A DNA stretch of 64,000 nucleotides from an uncultured Bacteroidota bacterium (GTDB lineage Bacteria; Bacteroidota; Bacteroidia; AKYH767-A; OLB10), in assembly GCA_900696575.1 (NCBI GenBank), contig CAADHD010000016.1:1-64000 (forward strand), in the 5' to 3' direction. Made by a program: the position numbers and the translations under genes. The notes under the pieces were generated by a model, which worked only from the letters and a program-made list of their open reading frames with translations, was not told the origin of the DNA and made no database searches. This document shows positions 55,269-63,438 of this stretch, piece by piece (positions within the stretch are counted from its first letter, which is position 1; each line of letters begins with the position of its first letter).

Positions 55269-55361
55269 CATTCAGATTTTCTGTTTGCCGGTGGTTTCAT
55301 GCTGTCTGCTTTAGCAGATGCACAGAAGTTTATAATTGTATTTATCCCGGTAGATTATGAT

Positions 55362-56558
55362 ATGATTAAAATAAAACGTTTACTAATTATGCTTTTGCCT
55401 TTCATGGGAGCCACAAGGGTACCCGCACAAACCGTATTAACCGAGCAGCAAGCCGTTGAACTTGCTTTGAAGAAAAGTCCATTGCTCAATGTGGCAACTT
55501 TGCAGGTAAAAAAGCAAAAGCAGTTACAGGGAACAAGTTTTAACCTTGCAAACCCCGACATTACTTTGGAAAGCCCGACAGGTGATTTTATGACTGTTGG
55601 CGTGTTGCAGTCCTTTGAGTTCCCGACTGTGTATATTAAACAAGGACAGATTGCCAAACAGCAAATAGTATTAGCCGAAAAAGAAAAAACGCTGACCGAA
55701 GCCGAAGTAAAGCAGCAGGTAAAAACTGCATACCTCCATTTGCAATTTACTAATCAGATGCTGGCTCAGCTGAAAAAGCAGGACAGTATCTATTTTATTA
55801 TTGCCGATGCAGCAAGCCGACAATTCACAGCAGGACAAATTGATTTTGTAGCTAAAACTTTTGCCGCCACACAATATGGCGAAGTGCATAATCAGTTTGT
55901 ACAAGCCCAAACCGATGCAACTCTTGCTTTACAGCAATTACAACTTTACACAGGAATTACTAACATCATCACCACCACACCTTTTACAAAAAGTAACAAC
56001 ACATTTCTTCTTACAGAAATTGCCACCGACAGCGCTACGCTTGTCAGCACTCCTTTCATTCAATACTATACGCAAAAGCAAAACATCGCAAAGAAATCTT
56101 GGCAGTTAGAAAAGAACAAAGCACTACCCGGCTTTTCTTTCGGTTACATGAATCAGGGAGCAAAAAACACTGAATTCCCTTTACGCCTTCGCGCTGGTAT
56201 AAACATTCCAATTTGGTTTTGGCAATACAGTTCAGCAATCAAGGCGGCAAAAACAAATCTGCAAATAACACAGCAAAACACATTGGCGCAACAGCAAAAC
56301 CTCAATTCAAAACTGCAACAGTTAAAAAGTGATGCCATTAAATTTCAAACCTCGCTTGTCTTTTACGAAACCACAGGACTAAAACAGGCAGACGATTTAA
56401 TTGCCGCATCGGCAAGAATGTTTTCAGCAGGTCAAACCGATTACATCACTTACCTGCGAACCCTTTCCGATGCTTACAACATTCAGGTAAAATATCTGGA
56501 AACACTTCGTGCTTTCAATCAATCCATTTTAAACATTAATTACCTCAATGGGCAATAG
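55362..56558 (+). CDS. cusC: TolC/CusC-family outer-membrane channel of the metal pump
   Basis: 398 residues from the ATG at 55362 ([23 protein letters not shown] is the signal peptide; an upstream TTG frame is less likely). Two helical hairpin repeats of the TolC fold, [29 protein letters not shown] and [28 protein letters not shown], with long amphipathic helices between. The C-terminal residues NGQ and the stop TAG (56556-56558) are encoded by the first heptamers of an adjacent repeat array, so the original end was probably replaced. It exports cations across the outer membrane with the adaptor and RND pump encoded next. Confidence 0.88.
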
Positions 56559-56781
56559 ACAATGGGCAATGGGCAATAGACAATGGGCGATGGGCAATAG
56601 ACAATGGGCAATAGGCAATAGACAATAGGCAATGGGCAATGGGAAAAACACAAATACTAAAACAGAGAATATGAAAAATACTATCAGGCAACTGCTAACT
56701 ACATTTTATTTATTGCCAATTGCCAGTTGGCGATTGTTCTTTACCTTCTTGCTCAGTGCAAATTGCCAACTGCTAATGGCA
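56546..56781. repeat. Heptamer inverted element E1 (forward and reverse arrays)
   Basis: Forward array 56546-56643: fourteen consecutive heptamers of form CAATRGR (one CGATGGG). Reverse array 56711-56781: TATTGCC AATTGCC plus degenerate units, then AATTGCC AACTGCT after a gap. The 67-base spacer holds the adaptor's ATG (56671). The forward array contributes the cusC stop; the reverse array encodes part of the adaptor's signal peptide. Confidence 0.9.
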
Positions 56782-58392
56782 TCTGGTGGAGACGACCACA
56801 CGCACGGTGATGAAAAGCCAGCAACAATGGAACAGCAGCAAAAGTTTTTTTCATCCGAAGCTGTGTCTGACAAATACGAGTTGCTTATTCGCTATGAACC
56901 TATTCACGTTGGCGAACCCGCTCACCTCACCTTGTTTATAAGCGAATACGCCACCAACAAACCCGTTAATAATGCAGTTTTAAAAATCACTGCACAGGAA
57001 GACAGCAAACTTGTTTTCACCATCCATCAAACGGATGAAGGAACTTATACCATTGAAACTTCTTTTCCCGAAAAGAAAAAGTATTCATTAGCCGTAAACT
57101 TCAACAGCGCATTAGGTCCTGACTTGATTTTGCTTTCAAATATTGAAGCGGGAAAAGAATTACCACATGAAGAAACAGCAAGTAAACAATGGGCAATCGG
57201 CAATTGGCAAACTATTTTGCTCTTTACTTTTGTACTGCTGATGGGTTTAGGTCTTGGAATTCTTATTCAAAGGAGGAACACAAAAACCGGAAGACAAGTT
57301 TCCTCTTTTTTATTACTCATTGCCTATTGCTTATTGCCTGCTGAGCAAAGCACAGCGCATGGCGATGACGACCACGGAGAAAAAAAATCAGGCAACAATT
57401 TTTCCAACTCCTTCCATGTACCTAAAGAAACACAATTTCTGTTTGATGTGCTTACCGAGAAGGTTCAAAAAGGAAGTTTTACCGAAAGCACTAAGCTTTT
57501 CGGTACAATTATTCCAAGCAGCAACGGTCAGGCATTGGTAACTGCTCCGCAAAACGGAAAAATTATTGCGCTCAATGTTCGCGTAGGGGAACACATAAAA
57601 GCAGGTCAGCAATTAGCCATCATTGAACAAATTATTGATGCAGGAACACAGATAAATTTGATAGCAGAGAAAAATAATCTCACGGCTGAATACGATGCAG
57701 CGAAAAAAGAATTTGACCGCCTTAATTCCATAAAAGACATTGCAGCAAAACGCGATGTGGACGAAGCTACCGCACGGTTGCAGAAAGCAGAAACCAATTT
57801 GAAACTTTTCACAGGCAATACAGGAAAAACCATTGAGTTACATGCGCCTATCAGTGGTATGGTTGCCAACTTCAAATTATCAATAGGCGCAACGGTAAAC
57901 GCGGGTGAAACGCTTTTCACCATCACCAACCTTGCACAGATTTATGCCGAAGCGCAGGTGTTTGATAAAGATGCGAACAAAGTTCAGCATGGCGCAAAGT
58001 TTACGATTGAGTGCGCCAACGACAGCCACAAAACAAGCGAAGTAAAACTGCTTTCACTCGCTCAGGAAATAAACGCCACCAACCAATCGCAGCGCATTTT
58101 GATTGAACTCAGCAATCCTGACAGCGATTTTAAAATCGGTGAGTTTGTAAACATCCGCGTTTTCGCTTCCGAAAATTCACAACAAATCGCTTTGCCAAAT
58201 TCTGCCATCACCGAAATAAACGGCAAACCTGTCGTGTTCATTAAAGATGCAGCCGAAAAATATACTGTAAGCTATGTGCAGTTAGGCGAAAATAACGGCA
58301 CTTACACAAGCATCATTAAAGGTGTGGAAGAAGGTGAGCGTGTAGTAGTCAATGCCAGTTACCAACTAAAAATGATTTATCTGAATCAATAA
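56671..58392 (+). CDS. cusB: RND metal-efflux periplasmic adaptor (CusB/CzcB type)
   Basis: 573 residues from the ATG at 56671; another in-frame ATG (56632) lies inside the repeat array and gives a poor N-terminus. The signal peptide (residues 1-37) is largely repeat-encoded ([10 protein letters not shown]). Residues ~38-170: extra N-terminal beta domain starting with a His/Asp-rich [10 protein letters not shown]. One membrane helix near 180-200, then a second [10 protein letters not shown] stretch, then the HlyD-type part: [41 protein letters not shown], lipoyl/hairpin region and [29 protein letters not shown]. The repeat pair E2 lies inside (residues ~173-222). It links the CusA-type pump to the outer-membrane channel. 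Confidence 0.88.
57187..57338. repeat. Heptamer inverted element E2, inside the adaptor gene
   Basis: Forward: CAATGGG CAATCGG CAATTGG (57187-57207). Reverse: CATTGCC TATTGCT TATTGCC (57318-57338). The intervening 110 bases encode the membrane helix of the adaptor. The arrays encode QWAIGNWQ and LIAYCLLP. Confidence 0.8.
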
Positions 58393-58714
58393 GCAATTTG
58401 CAAATGGCAATAAGCAAAACATGAATCAATAGGCAATAAGCAAAAAATGAACAATAGGCAATTGTCAATAAGCAAAACATTACTCTATACCCTGCACAAT
58501 TAACCTACATCCATTATTTATTAAAAACTAAAAATCAATAAAAATGAAAACAAAAGCAAAAATCAAATCCTCATCAACAATTCGTGGCTCATTTTCAATT
58601 GCAGATTGCCCATTGCCTATTGCCAGTTGCCCATTGCCTATTGCCAGTTGCCCATTGCCTATTGCCAGTTGCCCATTGCCAGTTGCCAGTTGGATATTGC
58701 CCATTGCTTGTTGG
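58387..58714. repeat. Heptamer inverted element E3 around the HMBD lipoprotein start
   Basis: Forward array 58387-58479 (CAATAAG, CAATAGG and CAAAACA units with two frame slips) begins with the adaptor's stop codon. Reverse array 58596-58714: seventeen heptamers without a break, in a 21-base super-unit CCATTGC CTATTGC CAGTTGC repeated about four times. The ATG at 58544 lies between them. Confidence 0.92.
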
Positions 58715-59665
58715 ACAATGCTCTTTCTTGCTTCTTGCAACAATATCAGTAACAAAGAAAATTCAACAGTAAAAACAGAAGAACACGCTCACGGTGAAGG
58801 CGAACACCATGAACACATTTTCGCTTGCCCCATGCACCCGGAAGTGACAGGCAAAGAAGGCGACAAATGCCCTAAGTGCGGAATGGCTTTAGAACACATG
58901 GACGAAGCACCCGAGAAAGGAAATTTTCAAATGCAGCTTACTACTTCACCGCAAACCATTGAAGCCGGTAAACCCGCAACACTTGTATTCACACCAAAAA
59001 ATAAAGACAACGCAAGCGCAGCAGTTCCTTTGGAAGTTCAGCACGAAAAAAAAATCCACCTGATCTTAGTAAGCGAAGATTTATCCTGGTTCAATCATAT
59101 CCACCCCGAATATCAGACAGATGGCTCTTATACTGTGGAAGAAACTTTTCCTAACGGTGGCAACTACCTTCTTTATGCCGATTACAAACCAAGCGGAAGC
59201 ACTCACCAGTTGGAAAAAATCAATGTAGTGGTGAAAGGAAAAACTGTTCCTGCAAAAACTTTCACCACTATTCAAAATACAGCCGTAAGTGATGCTTACA
59301 CCATAACACTTAAACCCGATGACGGAGTTTTCATTTCCAATAAAGCCATTCACTTTGACGGTGTGTTTACCAAAAACGGGAAATCCTTTGATGTAAATCA
59401 ACTTCAAAATTACCTCGGTGCAAAAGGTCACATGGTTGCCATCAACACCGAAACAAAAGACTATCTGCATCTGCATCCCGAAGTAGAAGGAGTTATTCTA
59501 CACTTCCACACCACGTTTGAGAAAGCCGGAAATTACCGCGTATGGCTGCAATTCATGGCAGACGGAAAACTGCACACTGTTGACTTTTTCATAAATGTGG
59601 AGCAAGGTGAAGCAGTAACAGCCACAACAGAACATGACCACAGCGGACATTCACACAAACATTAA
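58544..59665 (+). CDS. Heavy-metal-binding-domain lipoprotein of the efflux cluster
   Basis: 373 residues. Basic N-terminus, then residues ~18-57 encoded by the reverse heptamer array, reading CPLPIAS over and over, then WTMLFLASC (lipobox, Cys65), so the lipoprotein signal has been lengthened far beyond the usual ~20 residues. A His-rich linker leads to the heavy-metal-binding domain at ~92-119 ([26 protein letters not shown], with CPMHP and CxxCGM). The rest (~125-350) is a two-module domain with [15 protein letters not shown] and [17 protein letters not shown], probably metal-binding. It ends in [10 protein letters not shown]. It likely binds copper or another soft metal for the pump. Confidence 0.82.
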
Positions 59666-59668
59666 GTT

Positions 59669-60187
59669 CAATAAGCAATTGGCAATAAGCAACTGGCAAA
59701 AAGCAAAAAGCAACTGGCAAAAAGCAATAAGCAAAAACTAAAACGATGGCGGCAAAAAGAGTTCAGGATACTAAAGTGTATCAGTTAGCTTTTCAGCTGG
59801 CGATGGAAATTTTTGAAGTGACTAAAAAGTTTCCCGCGGAAGAAAAGTATTCACTGACTGACCAGATAAGAAGATGCAGCAGAAGCGTGTGTGCTAATCT
59901 TTCGGAGAGTTATCGCAAACGGCAATATCCTGCGCACTTTGTATCCAAAGTAAGTGATTCAGATATGGAAAATACAGAAACTCAAACATGGCTTGAGTTT
60001 GCTCTTGCATGCAAATACATTTCAGAAACTCAGTTCAATGATTTTCAAATCAAGTCCGAAGAAATTGGAAGATTACTTAACCATATGCTCAACAATTCCG
60101 AAAAATATTGATAGCCAAACTGCTTTGTTCCACTTTGCCAATTGCTTATTGCTTATTGCCCATTGCCCATTGCCCATCGCCCATTGA
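59669..60187. repeat. Heptamer inverted element E4, bracketing the four-helix-bundle gene
   Basis: Forward array 59669-59738: ten heptamers (CAATAAG, CAATTGG, CAACTGG, CAAAAAG types). Reverse array 60132-60187: eight heptamers ending in TTGC (CCATTGC, TTATTGC, CCATCGC). Only the gene at 59746-60111 and 20 further bases lie between, and the pump ATG is eight bases to the right. Confidence 0.9.
59746..60111 (+). CDS. Four-helix-bundle protein of the 23S-IVP / S23 family
   Basis: 121 residues. Family pattern: VYQLAFQLAMEIFEVTKKFPAEEKYSLTDQIRRCSRSVCANLSESYRKRQ, then a helix with Asp/Glu-rich SDSDMENTETQTWLEFALACKYISETQF and a last helix EEIGRLLNHMLN. These bundles occur as reading frames in 23S rRNA intervening sequences and are related to the Avd accessory protein of diversity-generating retroelements. 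They bind nucleic acid, but their usual role is unknown. Here the gene sits among metal-efflux genes, bracketed by inverted heptamer arrays. No reverse transcriptase or variable-repeat region is present, so an Avd role is unlikely. Confidence 0.85.
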   Translation: MAAKRVQDTKVYQLAFQLAMEIFEVTKKFPAEEKYSLTDQIRRCSRSVCANLSESYRKRQYPAHFVSKVSDSDMENTETQTWLEFALACKYISETQFNDFQIKSEEIGRLLNHMLNNSEKY

Positions 60188-60195
60188 TATAAACC

Positions 60196-63100
60196 ATGCT
60201 CAACAAACTCATAAAATTCTCCCTTGAAAACCGCCTCTTTGTTGTCGCGTTCGCGGCACTGCTTATGGTTTATGGCGTGTTCACCATCATTAATTTGCCC
60301 GTTGATGTGTTGCCCGACTTAAACCGTCCGCGCGTTACAATTTTTCTGGAAGCCAACGGCATGGCTCCCGAAGAAATTGAAACACAAGTTTCAATGCCTG
60401 TTGAAATTGCATTGAATGGTGCGCCCGGTGTAGAAGCTGTGCGTAGCAGTTCAGCGATTGGTATAGGGATGGTGTTTGTTGAATTTGACTGGAACACTGA
60501 TATTTTTCGTGCACGTCAAATAGTTGCCGAAAAACTCCAAACCGTTCAATTACCCAACGGCATTACGCCCATAATGGGTCCAATCAGTTCAGTGATGGGG
60601 CAAATTATGCTTGTTGGTATTTCAGCCGACAGTACTTCCCCTTCCGAATTACGCACCCTTGCTGACTTTACCATTCGCAGACGGCTGATGAGCATCAAAG
60701 GAATTTCACAAGTCATTTCCATTGGTGGCGAACGCTTGCAGTATCAGGTGTTGATTTCATCCGCAAAACTCAAACAGTTCAATCTCTCAATTGATGATGT
60801 GGACAAGGCCTTGCAACTCACTAACCAAAATACAACAGGTGGTTTTTTCAATCAATACGGCAGCGAAGTGTTGATTAGAAACGTTGGTCGTGCTTACACT
60901 TTAGATGATTTAAAAAATACAGTTGTTGCCAACCGTGATGGCTTGCCGGTGTTGCTTTCGCAGGTGGCAGAAGTAAAATTCGGTGCAGCCCAAAAACGGG
61001 GCGATGCCAGCATTAACGGAAAACCGGCTGTCATTCTTACCATAGAAAAGCAACCGGGCGCTAATACGGTTTCGTTAACTCAAGAAGTTGAAAACGCGTT
61101 AGCAGAACTGCTATCATCTTTACCACCCGATGTTAAACTCAATGCCAAAATATTTCAGCAGAAAAATTTTATTGAAGCCGCACTTATCAATGTGGAAGAA
61201 GCTCTGCGCGATGGATTTATTTTAGTAGTAATTATTCTCTTTTTGTTTTTGCTGAATTTCCGAACAACCATCATTACGCTTACGGCTATCCCGCTATCTC
61301 TCGTTATCACTGCCATTATTTTCAAACTCTTTGGTTTCAGCATCAATACGCTTACGCTTGGCGGACTTGCCATTGCCATTGGTGAACTGGTGGACGATGC
61401 TATTGTGGATGTAGAAAATGTTTTCAGGCGCATCAACGAAAACAAGAAACTGCAAAATCCGAAACCACTTTTGCAAGTGGTGTATGATGCCAGCCGCGAA
61501 ATCCGCAATTCAATCGTGTATGCAACTGTTATAGTGGTCTTGGTTTTCATTCCCTTATTCTACATGCAGGGCATGGAAGGACGAATTTTTGCACCGCTTG
61601 GCATTGCTTACATCACTTCCATTATTGCATCGCTTGTTGTTTCACTCACCGTTACACCTGTTCTTTGTTCTTATTTATTAACCAATAAACAATCGGCAAT
61701 AAGCAATCGGCAATTATCGGTTAGCAAATGGCAGTGGGCGATTACTAAAAGCAGAGGTAATGTATTTCTTGCCTATTGTCTATTGCCTGTTGCTTATTGC
61801 CTGATGCCTATTGCCTATTTGAGAAATTCAAATCACGAAAATGAAAGCTGGCTTGTAAGGGGACTAAAAAAATGGGATAAAAGATTGCTTCATTGGGGTT
61901 TGGCGCGACCAAAATCAGTTATCGGGGCTGCCATCATTTTAATTATCGCATCGGTTAGCATCGTTCCGTTTTTCGGATCAGAATTTTTACCTCCATTCAA
62001 TGAGGGCTCTTTTACTATCAACCTTTCCACTCCCGCAGGAACTTCTTTAGAAGAAAGCAACAAGATTGGAACAATGGCAGAAGAACTGATGCTGCAAGTT
62101 CCCGAAGTAGAATATGTGAGCCGCAGAACGGGAAGGGCAGAGTTAGACGAACACGTTGAACCCGTTTCTAATTCTGAAATTGATGTGCTGCTGAAAACAA
62201 ATTCTGAAAGAACCCGAAACGAAATTCTTGCTGACATCCGCAGCAAATTAGATATTCTCAAAGGCGTAACCGTAAATGTGGGGCAACCCATTTCACACCG
62301 GTTAGACCATTTGCTTTCAGGTGTTCGCGCACAGGTTGCCATAAAACTTTTCGGCAGCGACCTTACGGATTTGAGAACAAACGCCAATCAAATTTCCGAA
62401 ACCATCAAATCAATTCCCGGTGTAGTTGATGTGCAGATTGAAAAGCAGGTCATGGTTCCGCAACTGCTCATAAAAGTAAACCGCGAAGCTTTGCAGCGTT
62501 ACGGATTGCAAGCAGGTAAAGTGGCAGAGGACCTGGAAATTTTTTACAACGGAAAAGTTACAGGACAAATACTTGACGGTAACAAAACCTTTGACATTCT
62601 GCTTCGCACCACCGATGAAGAACGCACCAACATTGAAGCCATCCGAAACACCTTAATTGATGCGCCAAACGGAACGCTTATTCCATTGCAGCAAATCGCA
62701 AGCATTGAATACACAACAAGCATCAACAGCATCATGCACGAAAACACACAGCGTAAGATTACCATCAGTTGCAATGTGCAGGGCAGGGACTTAGGAACAA
62801 CCGTTCAGGAAATTCAAAACACAATCACCGCAAAAATAAAACTGCCCGAAGGTTATTTCGTGCAATACGGTGGGCAGTTTGAAAGCCAGAAATCAGCATC
62901 ACGCCTCATTCTCTTTCTCAGCATCTTTTCCGTTATCGGAATTTTTCTTGTCCTCTATTCACATTTCAAATCCACCCAAATTACTTTGCAAATTATGCTC
63001 AACATTCCCTTGGCACTGATTGGTAGCGTAATTGCCGTGTTGCTCACAGGCGGAACTTTTTCAGTTGCAACAATGGTCGGCTTCATCACGCTTACAGGCA

Positions 63101-63438
63101 TTGCATCGCGCAACGGAATTATGATGATTTCTCACTACATACATTTGATGGAACACGAAGGCGAAACATTCAGCAAGCAAATGATAATTCGCGGCTCGCT
63201 AGAAAGATTAGTTCCTGTTTTAATGACCGCCTTGGTTGCGGCACTTGCACTAATTCCATTAACCTTAGATGCACAGGCATCAGGTAAAGAAATTCTTTAT
63301 CCCGTTGCCACCGTTATTTTGGGCGGGCTTATCAGCAGCACTCTTTTAGACATGATTGTAACGCCAGTCGTGTTTCATACTTTTGGTGAAAAGGCAATCA
63401 AAAAGCATTTTTTAAAAAGCGAAAAACTGGTTGAATAA
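60196..63438 (+). CDS. cusA: Heavy-metal efflux RND pump (CusA/CzcA family) with repeat-derived insertion
   Basis: 1080 residues; family members are usually about 1030-1050. HME-type marks: N-terminal helix ENRLFVVAFAALLMVYGVF, IGELVDDAIVDVENVFRR in transmembrane helix 4 with the acidic proton-relay residues, GTSLEESNKIGTMAEEL, and GGTFSVATMVGFITLTGIASRNGIMMISHYIHLMEHEG near the end. Residues ~496-542 are an insertion encoded by forward and reverse heptamer arrays (61683-61821), between helix 6 and the ESWLVRGLKKWDKRLL linker. It adds a hydrophobic stretch (FLAYCLLPVAYCLMPIAYL). The pump expels monovalent or divalent metal cations from periplasm or cytoplasm via CusB and CusC, driven by protons. 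Confidence 0.92.
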   Translation: MLNKLIKFSLENRLFVVAFAALLMVYGVFTIINLPVDVLPDLNRPRVTIFLEANGMAPEEIETQVSMPVEIALNGAPGVEAVRSSSAIGIGMVFVEFDWNTDIFRARQIVAEKLQTVQLPNGITPIMGPISSVMGQIMLVGISADSTSPSELRTLADFTIRRRLMSIKGISQVISIGGERLQYQVLISSAKLKQFNLSIDDVDKALQLTNQNTTGGFFNQYGSEVLIRNVGRAYTLDDLKNTVVANRDGLPVLLSQVAEVKFGAAQKRGDASINGKPAVILTIEKQPGANTVSLTQEVENALAELLSSLPPDVKLNAKIFQQKNFIEAALINVEEALRDGFILVVIILFLFLLNFRTTIITLTAIPLSLVITAIIFKLFGFSINTLTLGGLAIAIGELVDDAIVDVENVFRRINENKKLQNPKPLLQVVYDASREIRNSIVYATVIVVLVFIPLFYMQGMEGRIFAPLGIAYITSIIASLVVSLTVTPVLCSYLLTNKQSAISNRQLSVSKWQWAITKSRGNVFLAYCLLPVAYCLMPIAYLRNSNHENESWLVRGLKKWDKRLLHWGLARPKSVIGAAIILIIASVSIVPFFGSEFLPPFNEGSFTINLSTPAGTSLEESNKIGTMAEELMLQVPEVEYVSRRTGRAELDEHVEPVSNSEIDVLLKTNSERTRNEILADIRSKLDILKGVTVNVGQPISHRLDHLLSGVRAQVAIKLFGSDLTDLRTNANQISETIKSIPGVVDVQIEKQVMVPQLLIKVNREALQRYGLQAGKVAEDLEIFYNGKVTGQILDGNKTFDILLRTTDEERTNIEAIRNTLIDAPNGTLIPLQQIASIEYTTSINSIMHENTQRKITISCNVQGRDLGTTVQEIQNTITAKIKLPEGYFVQYGGQFESQKSASRLILFLSIFSVIGIFLVLYSHFKSTQITLQIMLNIPLALIGSVIAVLLTGGTFSVATMVGFITLTGIASRNGIMMISHYIHLMEHEGETFSKQMIIRGSLERLVPVLMTALVAALALIPLTLDAQASGKEILYPVATVILGGLISSTLLDMIVTPVVFHTFGEKAIKKHFLKSEKLVE
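61683..61821. repeat. Heptamer inverted element E5, in-frame inside the RND pump gene
   Basis: Forward array 61683-61745 (nine units: CAATAAA, CAATCGG, CAATAAG...) and reverse array 61766-61821 (eight units: CTATTGC, CTGTTGC, TTATTGC...), only 20 bases apart. The reading frame stays open through both. Confidence 0.9.

Follow-up and report, generated by a model that had tools for sequence, protein, structure and literature searches.

A PF05635 gene between inverted heptamer arrays in a Bacteroidota cus operon: probable copy of a small, mobile-looking unit of the 23S intervening-sequence kind

Following the analysis of a 64,000-nucleotide stretch of DNA from an uncultured Bacteroidota bacterium (the window), we consider it probable that E4, a segment of its cus efflux operon, is one copy of a mobile-looking unit of about 0.4-0.5 kb, of the kind found as intervening sequences (IVSs) in 23S rRNA, sitting in a gap between co-transcribed host genes. 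In the layout that we propose, such a unit would consist of a single PF05635 gene in sense orientation, flanked by a pair of inverted arrays of short repeats, usually of 7 nt. Comparison of aligned loci, which is the level at which these statements hold, shows that E4 is an insertion relative to near-identical operons, that its anatomy is common to much of the PF05635 family, that whole units are gained, lost, duplicated and replaced with breakpoints at the arms, and that the repeat unit tends to follow the protein lineage, yet both arms change together over time.

The host operon lies on the forward strand in the order cusC, cusB, a heavy-metal-binding domain (HMBD) lipoprotein gene, the four-helix-bundle (4HB) gene and cusA. 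Using profile scans, we placed the cusC-like outer membrane efflux gene at 55299-56558, the cusB-like adaptor gene at 56632-58392, the HMBD gene, which is the upstream neighbour of E4, at 58544-59665, and the cusA/czcA-type RND transporter gene, its downstream neighbour, at 60196-63438. E4 as an inserted segment covers 59666-60187. The preliminary description of this DNA had placed the 4HB gene (59746-60111) between a forward and a reverse array of 7-mers, and this was confirmed. Repeat-phase analysis gave a forward arm of 10 CAA-phased 7-nt units (59669-59738); the reverse arm, of TTGCCCA-type 7-nt units (60135-60190), stops just 5' of the cusA start codon and contains seven in-phase TTG units plus one variant unit in their midst. 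Both arrays are head-to-tail 7-nt units with a shared core, as are repeats of the STRR and TAACTGA type. Counting chains of four or more copies of any 4-mer in 7-nt phase, we found 31 between 54 and 64 kb; 30 dinucleotide shuffles gave 0.03 on average. The CAATNNN triple (CAATNNNCAATNNNCAAT) has 22 matches genome-wide (2.87 Mb), of which 21 lie at window positions 56546-61714, and 0 matches in the reversed control. In the predicted RNA of E4 the two arms pair with each other and close the structure (-139.1 kcal/mol, z -3.4), and in this predicted fold the inverted terminal repeats can close a stem round the ORF as they do in an IVS.

The product of 59746-60111, the cargo of E4, has 121 amino acids and matches PF05635 at 113 bits (cut-off 33.8) in a Pfam profile scan, TIGR02436 at 99.9 bits and the bAvd profile PF22296 at 48.5 bits, which makes it a 23S-IVP (S23p-like) protein and its gene an S23p/PF05635 ORF of the type that IVS elements carry. 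Against the Avd equivalog NF033474 it scored 32.9 bits, under the cut-off of 80. Solved structures among its relatives are 2RLD and 2GSC. The PF05635 gene is the sole gene in E4, in which no transposase or recombinase was found, and among the five operon proteins scanned there was no reverse transcriptase. E4 had no match to a known RNA family. A PADLOC search for defence systems and a search for phage carriage were likewise without a match, and on these grounds both the defence-system and the phage-carriage readings were dropped. Two further copies were observed in the same genome (G000): one near apparent tRNA genes and without arrays (L003:1477-1842, contig 32), and one decayed, with one stop codon, between two genes (L004:1451-1920, contig 10), whose flanks are weakly inverted and AT-rich.

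The gene had been said to interrupt the efflux operon, and this is literally so. We compared four cus operons (L348-L351) from other families of the same class, 78-89% identical to the window in DNA, and the E4 segment is missing from all four; only 28 nt separate the HMBD stop from the cusA start in L348, and 13 nt in L350. The alignment gaps of the four operons coincide with the window's arrays. The gene is missing from four operons whose CusA is 88-90% identical to the window's; L352, whose CusA is just 63.5% identical, has at cusB|cusA a gene 79% identical to that of E4, with CAAT arrays. Genes 58-60% identical, with CAAT arms, stand at other junctions of other RND operons in G022 and G021. 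Read as sequence comparisons, these distributions show the gene moving apart from its operon. The preliminary description had held that finding the gene kept at this place without arrays would speak against its proposal, and there is one such case, Runella L100, which has an orthologous gene at the window's junction without arms; gene and arms are therefore not inseparable.

Two side observations concern these junctions. The gap before cusA is a general hot spot, taken up in two near relatives by reading frames that, judged by eye, are methyltransferase-like (L349:4932-5574) and MerC-like (L351:4478-5104). At L352:4300-5560, the forward array ahead of the 79% identical gene is very long (about 350 nt), and between this gene and the reverse array its start is present a second time, in decayed form.

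Gain, loss, duplication and replacement of whole units were found at other junctions. In G022, two closely similar copies occupy two junctions of one RND operon, with the homology bounded by the arms; in G021, 76-80% identical to G022 in this region, the first of these junctions is a gap of 12 nt. In the window's genus, sdhC|sdhA has 15 nt from stop to start in G001 and a unit with AGTAGAA arms in G000. One junction was followed through a genus: in some species the gene comes with CTTAG-type arms, in others a 59-65% identical gene comes with ACAAAG-type arms, L285, L294 and L297 have paired arms without the gene, some species have unrelated hairpins, and L298 is empty (31 nt). Between L250 and L253 at this junction, identity is 99.3% in the upstream gene as far as its final codons, 67% in the unit and 95% in the downstream gene; interspecies homologous recombination could be an alternative source of this swap. 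Empty sites, which the preliminary description had proposed as a check, are therefore available for E4 (L348, L350) and also in G021 and in G001. Its further proposal, a non-transposase mobile element, is supported only in part, in that gene plus arms act as a unit in duplication, swaps and empty sites; no mechanism was seen, nor any excision product, nor any target-site duplication among relatives represented by one genome per species, whose gaps are too diverged to fix the ends to the base. In 15 multi-copy genomes the PF05635 copies are mostly diverged, with one recent duplication (G022), so that movement is rare at best, and frequent recent transposition within genomes was rejected.

Hairpins of other kinds were also observed. 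At a junction that holds the PF05635 unit in relatives, L263, L269, L270, L272, L275, L277 and L280 have a hairpin without a gene, about 75 nt long (gagccaagat...atcttggctc), and L265, L267 and L268 a different palindromic repeat (cctcaccccaaccctctcc).

The preliminary description had made its proposal depend on an association of the protein family with such arrays elsewhere, and this association was found. We surveyed the sequence on either side of about 50 loci belonging to the window's family and of 80 loci from many genera, chosen by similarity to a few proteins and thus not a random sample. The surveyed flanks carry inverted arrays with a unit of 6-10 nt, mostly 7, and the unit differs between loci. 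The arm score had a median of 16 at 75 loci versus 9 in 1131 slid windows (p 8e-40), and a score of at least 15 was reached at 52 of the 75 PF05635 loci versus 6 of 372 other genes of the same loci (p 1e-31); 20 of 46 were above the control 99th percentile in the wider family set. The gene-anchored controls rule out terminator or promoter hairpins as the origin of the inverted arms, and cross-pair and permutation tests rule out that the likeness of the arms comes merely from a recurrent shared motif. With gene calls approximated by the longest ORF, the gene was in sense between two co-oriented genes at 63 of 74 loci versus 159 of 321 controls. Host junctions, named by eye from the protein sequences, include sdhC|sdhA, scoA|scoB, sufB|sufC, atpA|atpG and ffh|folD. 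We found the family in 298 of the 395 genomes sampled, and for several of these 11 copies were reported. The layout also recurs on cyanobacterial plasmids, in most homologues examined: plasmid homologues from Tolypothrix, Nostoc and Leptolyngbya have inverted G-rich repeats of the GGAGCAG kind in L312 and L314-L317, as seen by eye, and L313 has same-sense arrays on both sides. Gene-less single arrays are numerous in G561, and arrays alone are therefore no evidence of a unit; one array there, L368, lies just 5' of a hemN-like gene, at a junction holding a PF05635 gene in several Flavobacteriaceae.

At one orthologous junction, the complementarity of arms to their own partners exceeded that of randomly dealt arms (permutation p 5e-5). 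The arm type, CAAT versus CAGT, changes twice on the protein tree, which is poorly resolved, and 500 shuffles never gave fewer than 6 changes. Mismatches between arms comprise 129 G.U versus 172 A.C, so there is no G.U excess and no support for selection on sense-strand RNA pairing. Turnover of both arms at the DNA level fits better, and the likeness of the arms is probably maintained by slippage, template switching or inter-arm conversion, not by RNA-pairing selection.

Besides E4, the cus operon contains four forward-then-reverse array pairs, which the preliminary description had taken as cargo-less relatives of E4. E1 (56546-56740) has a forward array at 56546-56657, starting in the final cusC codons, and a reverse array at 56712-56740, in the cusB 5' end; its arms flank the native cusB start region, and it is absent from L348, L350 and L351. 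E3 (58387-58717) has a forward array at 58387-58479, starting in the final cusB codons, and a reverse array at 58598-58717, and is absent from L348-L351. E5 (61683-61817; arrays at 61683-61731 and 61769-61817) is an in-frame insert of about 40 amino acids in CusA, absent from L348-L351, L097 and L099. At E1, E3 and E5 the relatives have 33-38, 76-78 and 74-78 nt respectively, with the exception of L349, which has 147 nt at E1 only. E1, E3 and E5 are absent from close relatives, but E2 (57187-57339), a short forward array (57187-57214) and a short reverse array (57319-57339) inside cusB, is no insertion: the alignment with relatives continues at equal length. At E1 and E3, the arms lie on both sides of native sequence round a start codon, and the forward arrays start in gene ends that already have CAAT in relatives (cusC ...GGTCAATAATG, cusB ...AATCAATAA). 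These two pairs therefore look as much like arrays that grew on the spot as like inserted elements, and for them "cargo-less element" is a loose label.

We also observed that the array-like sequence of E2 was gained without a change in length, as if CAAT/ATTG sites had been overwritten, and that the reverse array of E3 codes, within 58596-58717, for most of the HMBD lipoprotein signal peptide (CPLPIAS repeats), which in relatives is shorter and ordinary.

The 23S IVS of Coxiella burnetii is 428 nt long, has an S23p ORF and a 28-bp terminal inverted repeat, with two or three GACAGAT heptamers just ahead of the ORF, and is excised by RNase III (PMC4990558). E4 resembles it in having one S23p/PF05635 ORF, a comparable size (the IVS being about 430 nt), sense orientation with the host transcript, terminal inverted repeats predicted to close a stem, and tandem heptamers just ahead of the ORF. 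It differs from a 23S IVS in its site, which is not inside 23S rRNA (helix 25 or 45) but between two protein genes in the mRNA of an efflux operon, and in its type of arms, which are whole arrays with a unit varying by site; its excision is proposed by analogy. Heptamer tandem repeats (STRR, TAACTGA repeats) of cyanobacteria, Beggiatoaceae and Bacteroidetes are mostly intergenic (PMC4679880). The E4 arrays are like these in their tandem 7-nt units and in that some relatives have shorter, repeat-free gaps; the repeats of that report are direct ones near start codons, and it mentions neither a PF05635 link nor paired inverted arms. PF05635 resembles Avd (PMC10053308), and the E4 protein belongs to the same homologous fold family as DGR Avd on both the Avd and the bAvd scores; unlike a DGR, E4 encodes a protein under the Avd equivalog cut-off and has no reverse transcriptase or template/variable repeat as part of the unit. 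Like MITEs and REP-type palindromes, PF05635 units are short, have inverted ends, lie in intergenic gaps and share a junction with gene-less hairpins; unlike them, they have a conserved gene of their own, the sequence of their ends is not constant, and target duplications were not observed. A literature search, with subscription journals largely outside its reach, found no published link between the PF05635 family and heptamer arrays.

The unit would be transcribed from the host operon, and its arms would then form a long stem round the gene, from which RNase III could excise it out of the mRNA, as for rRNA IVSs. The likeliest account of its toleration in operons would be that it is excisable from the transcript. 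The Avd-like protein would help to copy or place its own unit, rarely, with host enzymes. Reading E4 as one copy of such a unit is supported by the empty sites, the arm association, the sense orientation, the co-variation of the arms, the duplication, the swap, the junction found occupied, gene-less and empty in different species, the 79% identical gene in an operon with a 63.5% identical CusA, the arms that follow the protein lineage, the cyanobacterial plasmids, the arm-closed fold and the Coxiella IVS anatomy. Counting against it are the armless genes Runella L100 and L003 of the same genome, the roughly half of the wider family set that is not above controls, the diverged copies in most genomes and the missing G.U excess, as well as the lack of any observed transposase, target duplication or excision product, the array pairs that flank native DNA and the gene-less single arrays of G561.

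It is unlikely, in our judgement, that the gene and its hairpin are a settled regulatory module, kept under selection because they tune operon expression (processing, stability, downstream translation) and spread by ordinary horizontal transfer. The prevailing sense orientation between co-oriented genes, the orthologous junctions kept in many species, the other hairpins found where the unit is missing and the E1 and E3 arms flanking start codons would all suit such a module, but one dedicated function would hardly leave sites empty in close relatives or place the unit in many unrelated host operons, and the G.U excess expected of selected RNA pairing is absent. Quite improbable is the reading in which two independent things persist in the same gaps, unstable heptamers growing at intergenic CAAT/CAGT seeds and a gene carried by homologous recombination. 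The gene-anchored controls argue against it, as do arms that are inverted, not random in direction, with a unit shared at each site, breakpoints at the arms on both sides (G022; L250/L253) and an arm type that follows the protein lineage; it draws on the single arrays common in G561, the armless Runella gene, the arrays that begin in native CAAT gene ends, E2 with its unchanged length, and heptamer repeats known without a PF05635 gene (PMC4679880). Chance repeats or an assembly artefact, for which nothing speaks beyond the repeat-rich sequence, are refuted by the dinucleotide shuffles and by a layout repeated in dozens of separately sequenced genomes, isolates among them, and we give them practically no weight.

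Beyond E4 itself, we advance as a tentative possibility, and a rather doubtful one, a widespread class of mobile units that have no transposase. In this class an Avd/IVP-type protein, which might work on the hairpin RNA of its own unit with a polymerase of host or foreign origin, would copy gene and arms into operon junctions, and the class would include, as members or relics, the rRNA IVSs and many of the orphan heptamer repeats found in Bacteroidota and cyanobacteria. According to PMC4990558, it is still unclear, over 25 years after the discovery, where IVSs come from and what S23p proteins do. Our results suggest that the IVSs of 23S rRNA are part of a far larger class of small units that look mobile, and tie IVSs and S23p to many copies at Bacteroidota operon junctions, where empty, gene-less, swapped and duplicated sites can be compared. 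They also provide one explanation shared by some of the heptamer repeats that are so far unexplained, and culturable flavobacteria allow direct tests of mobility, of cutting by RNase III and of binding by the protein.
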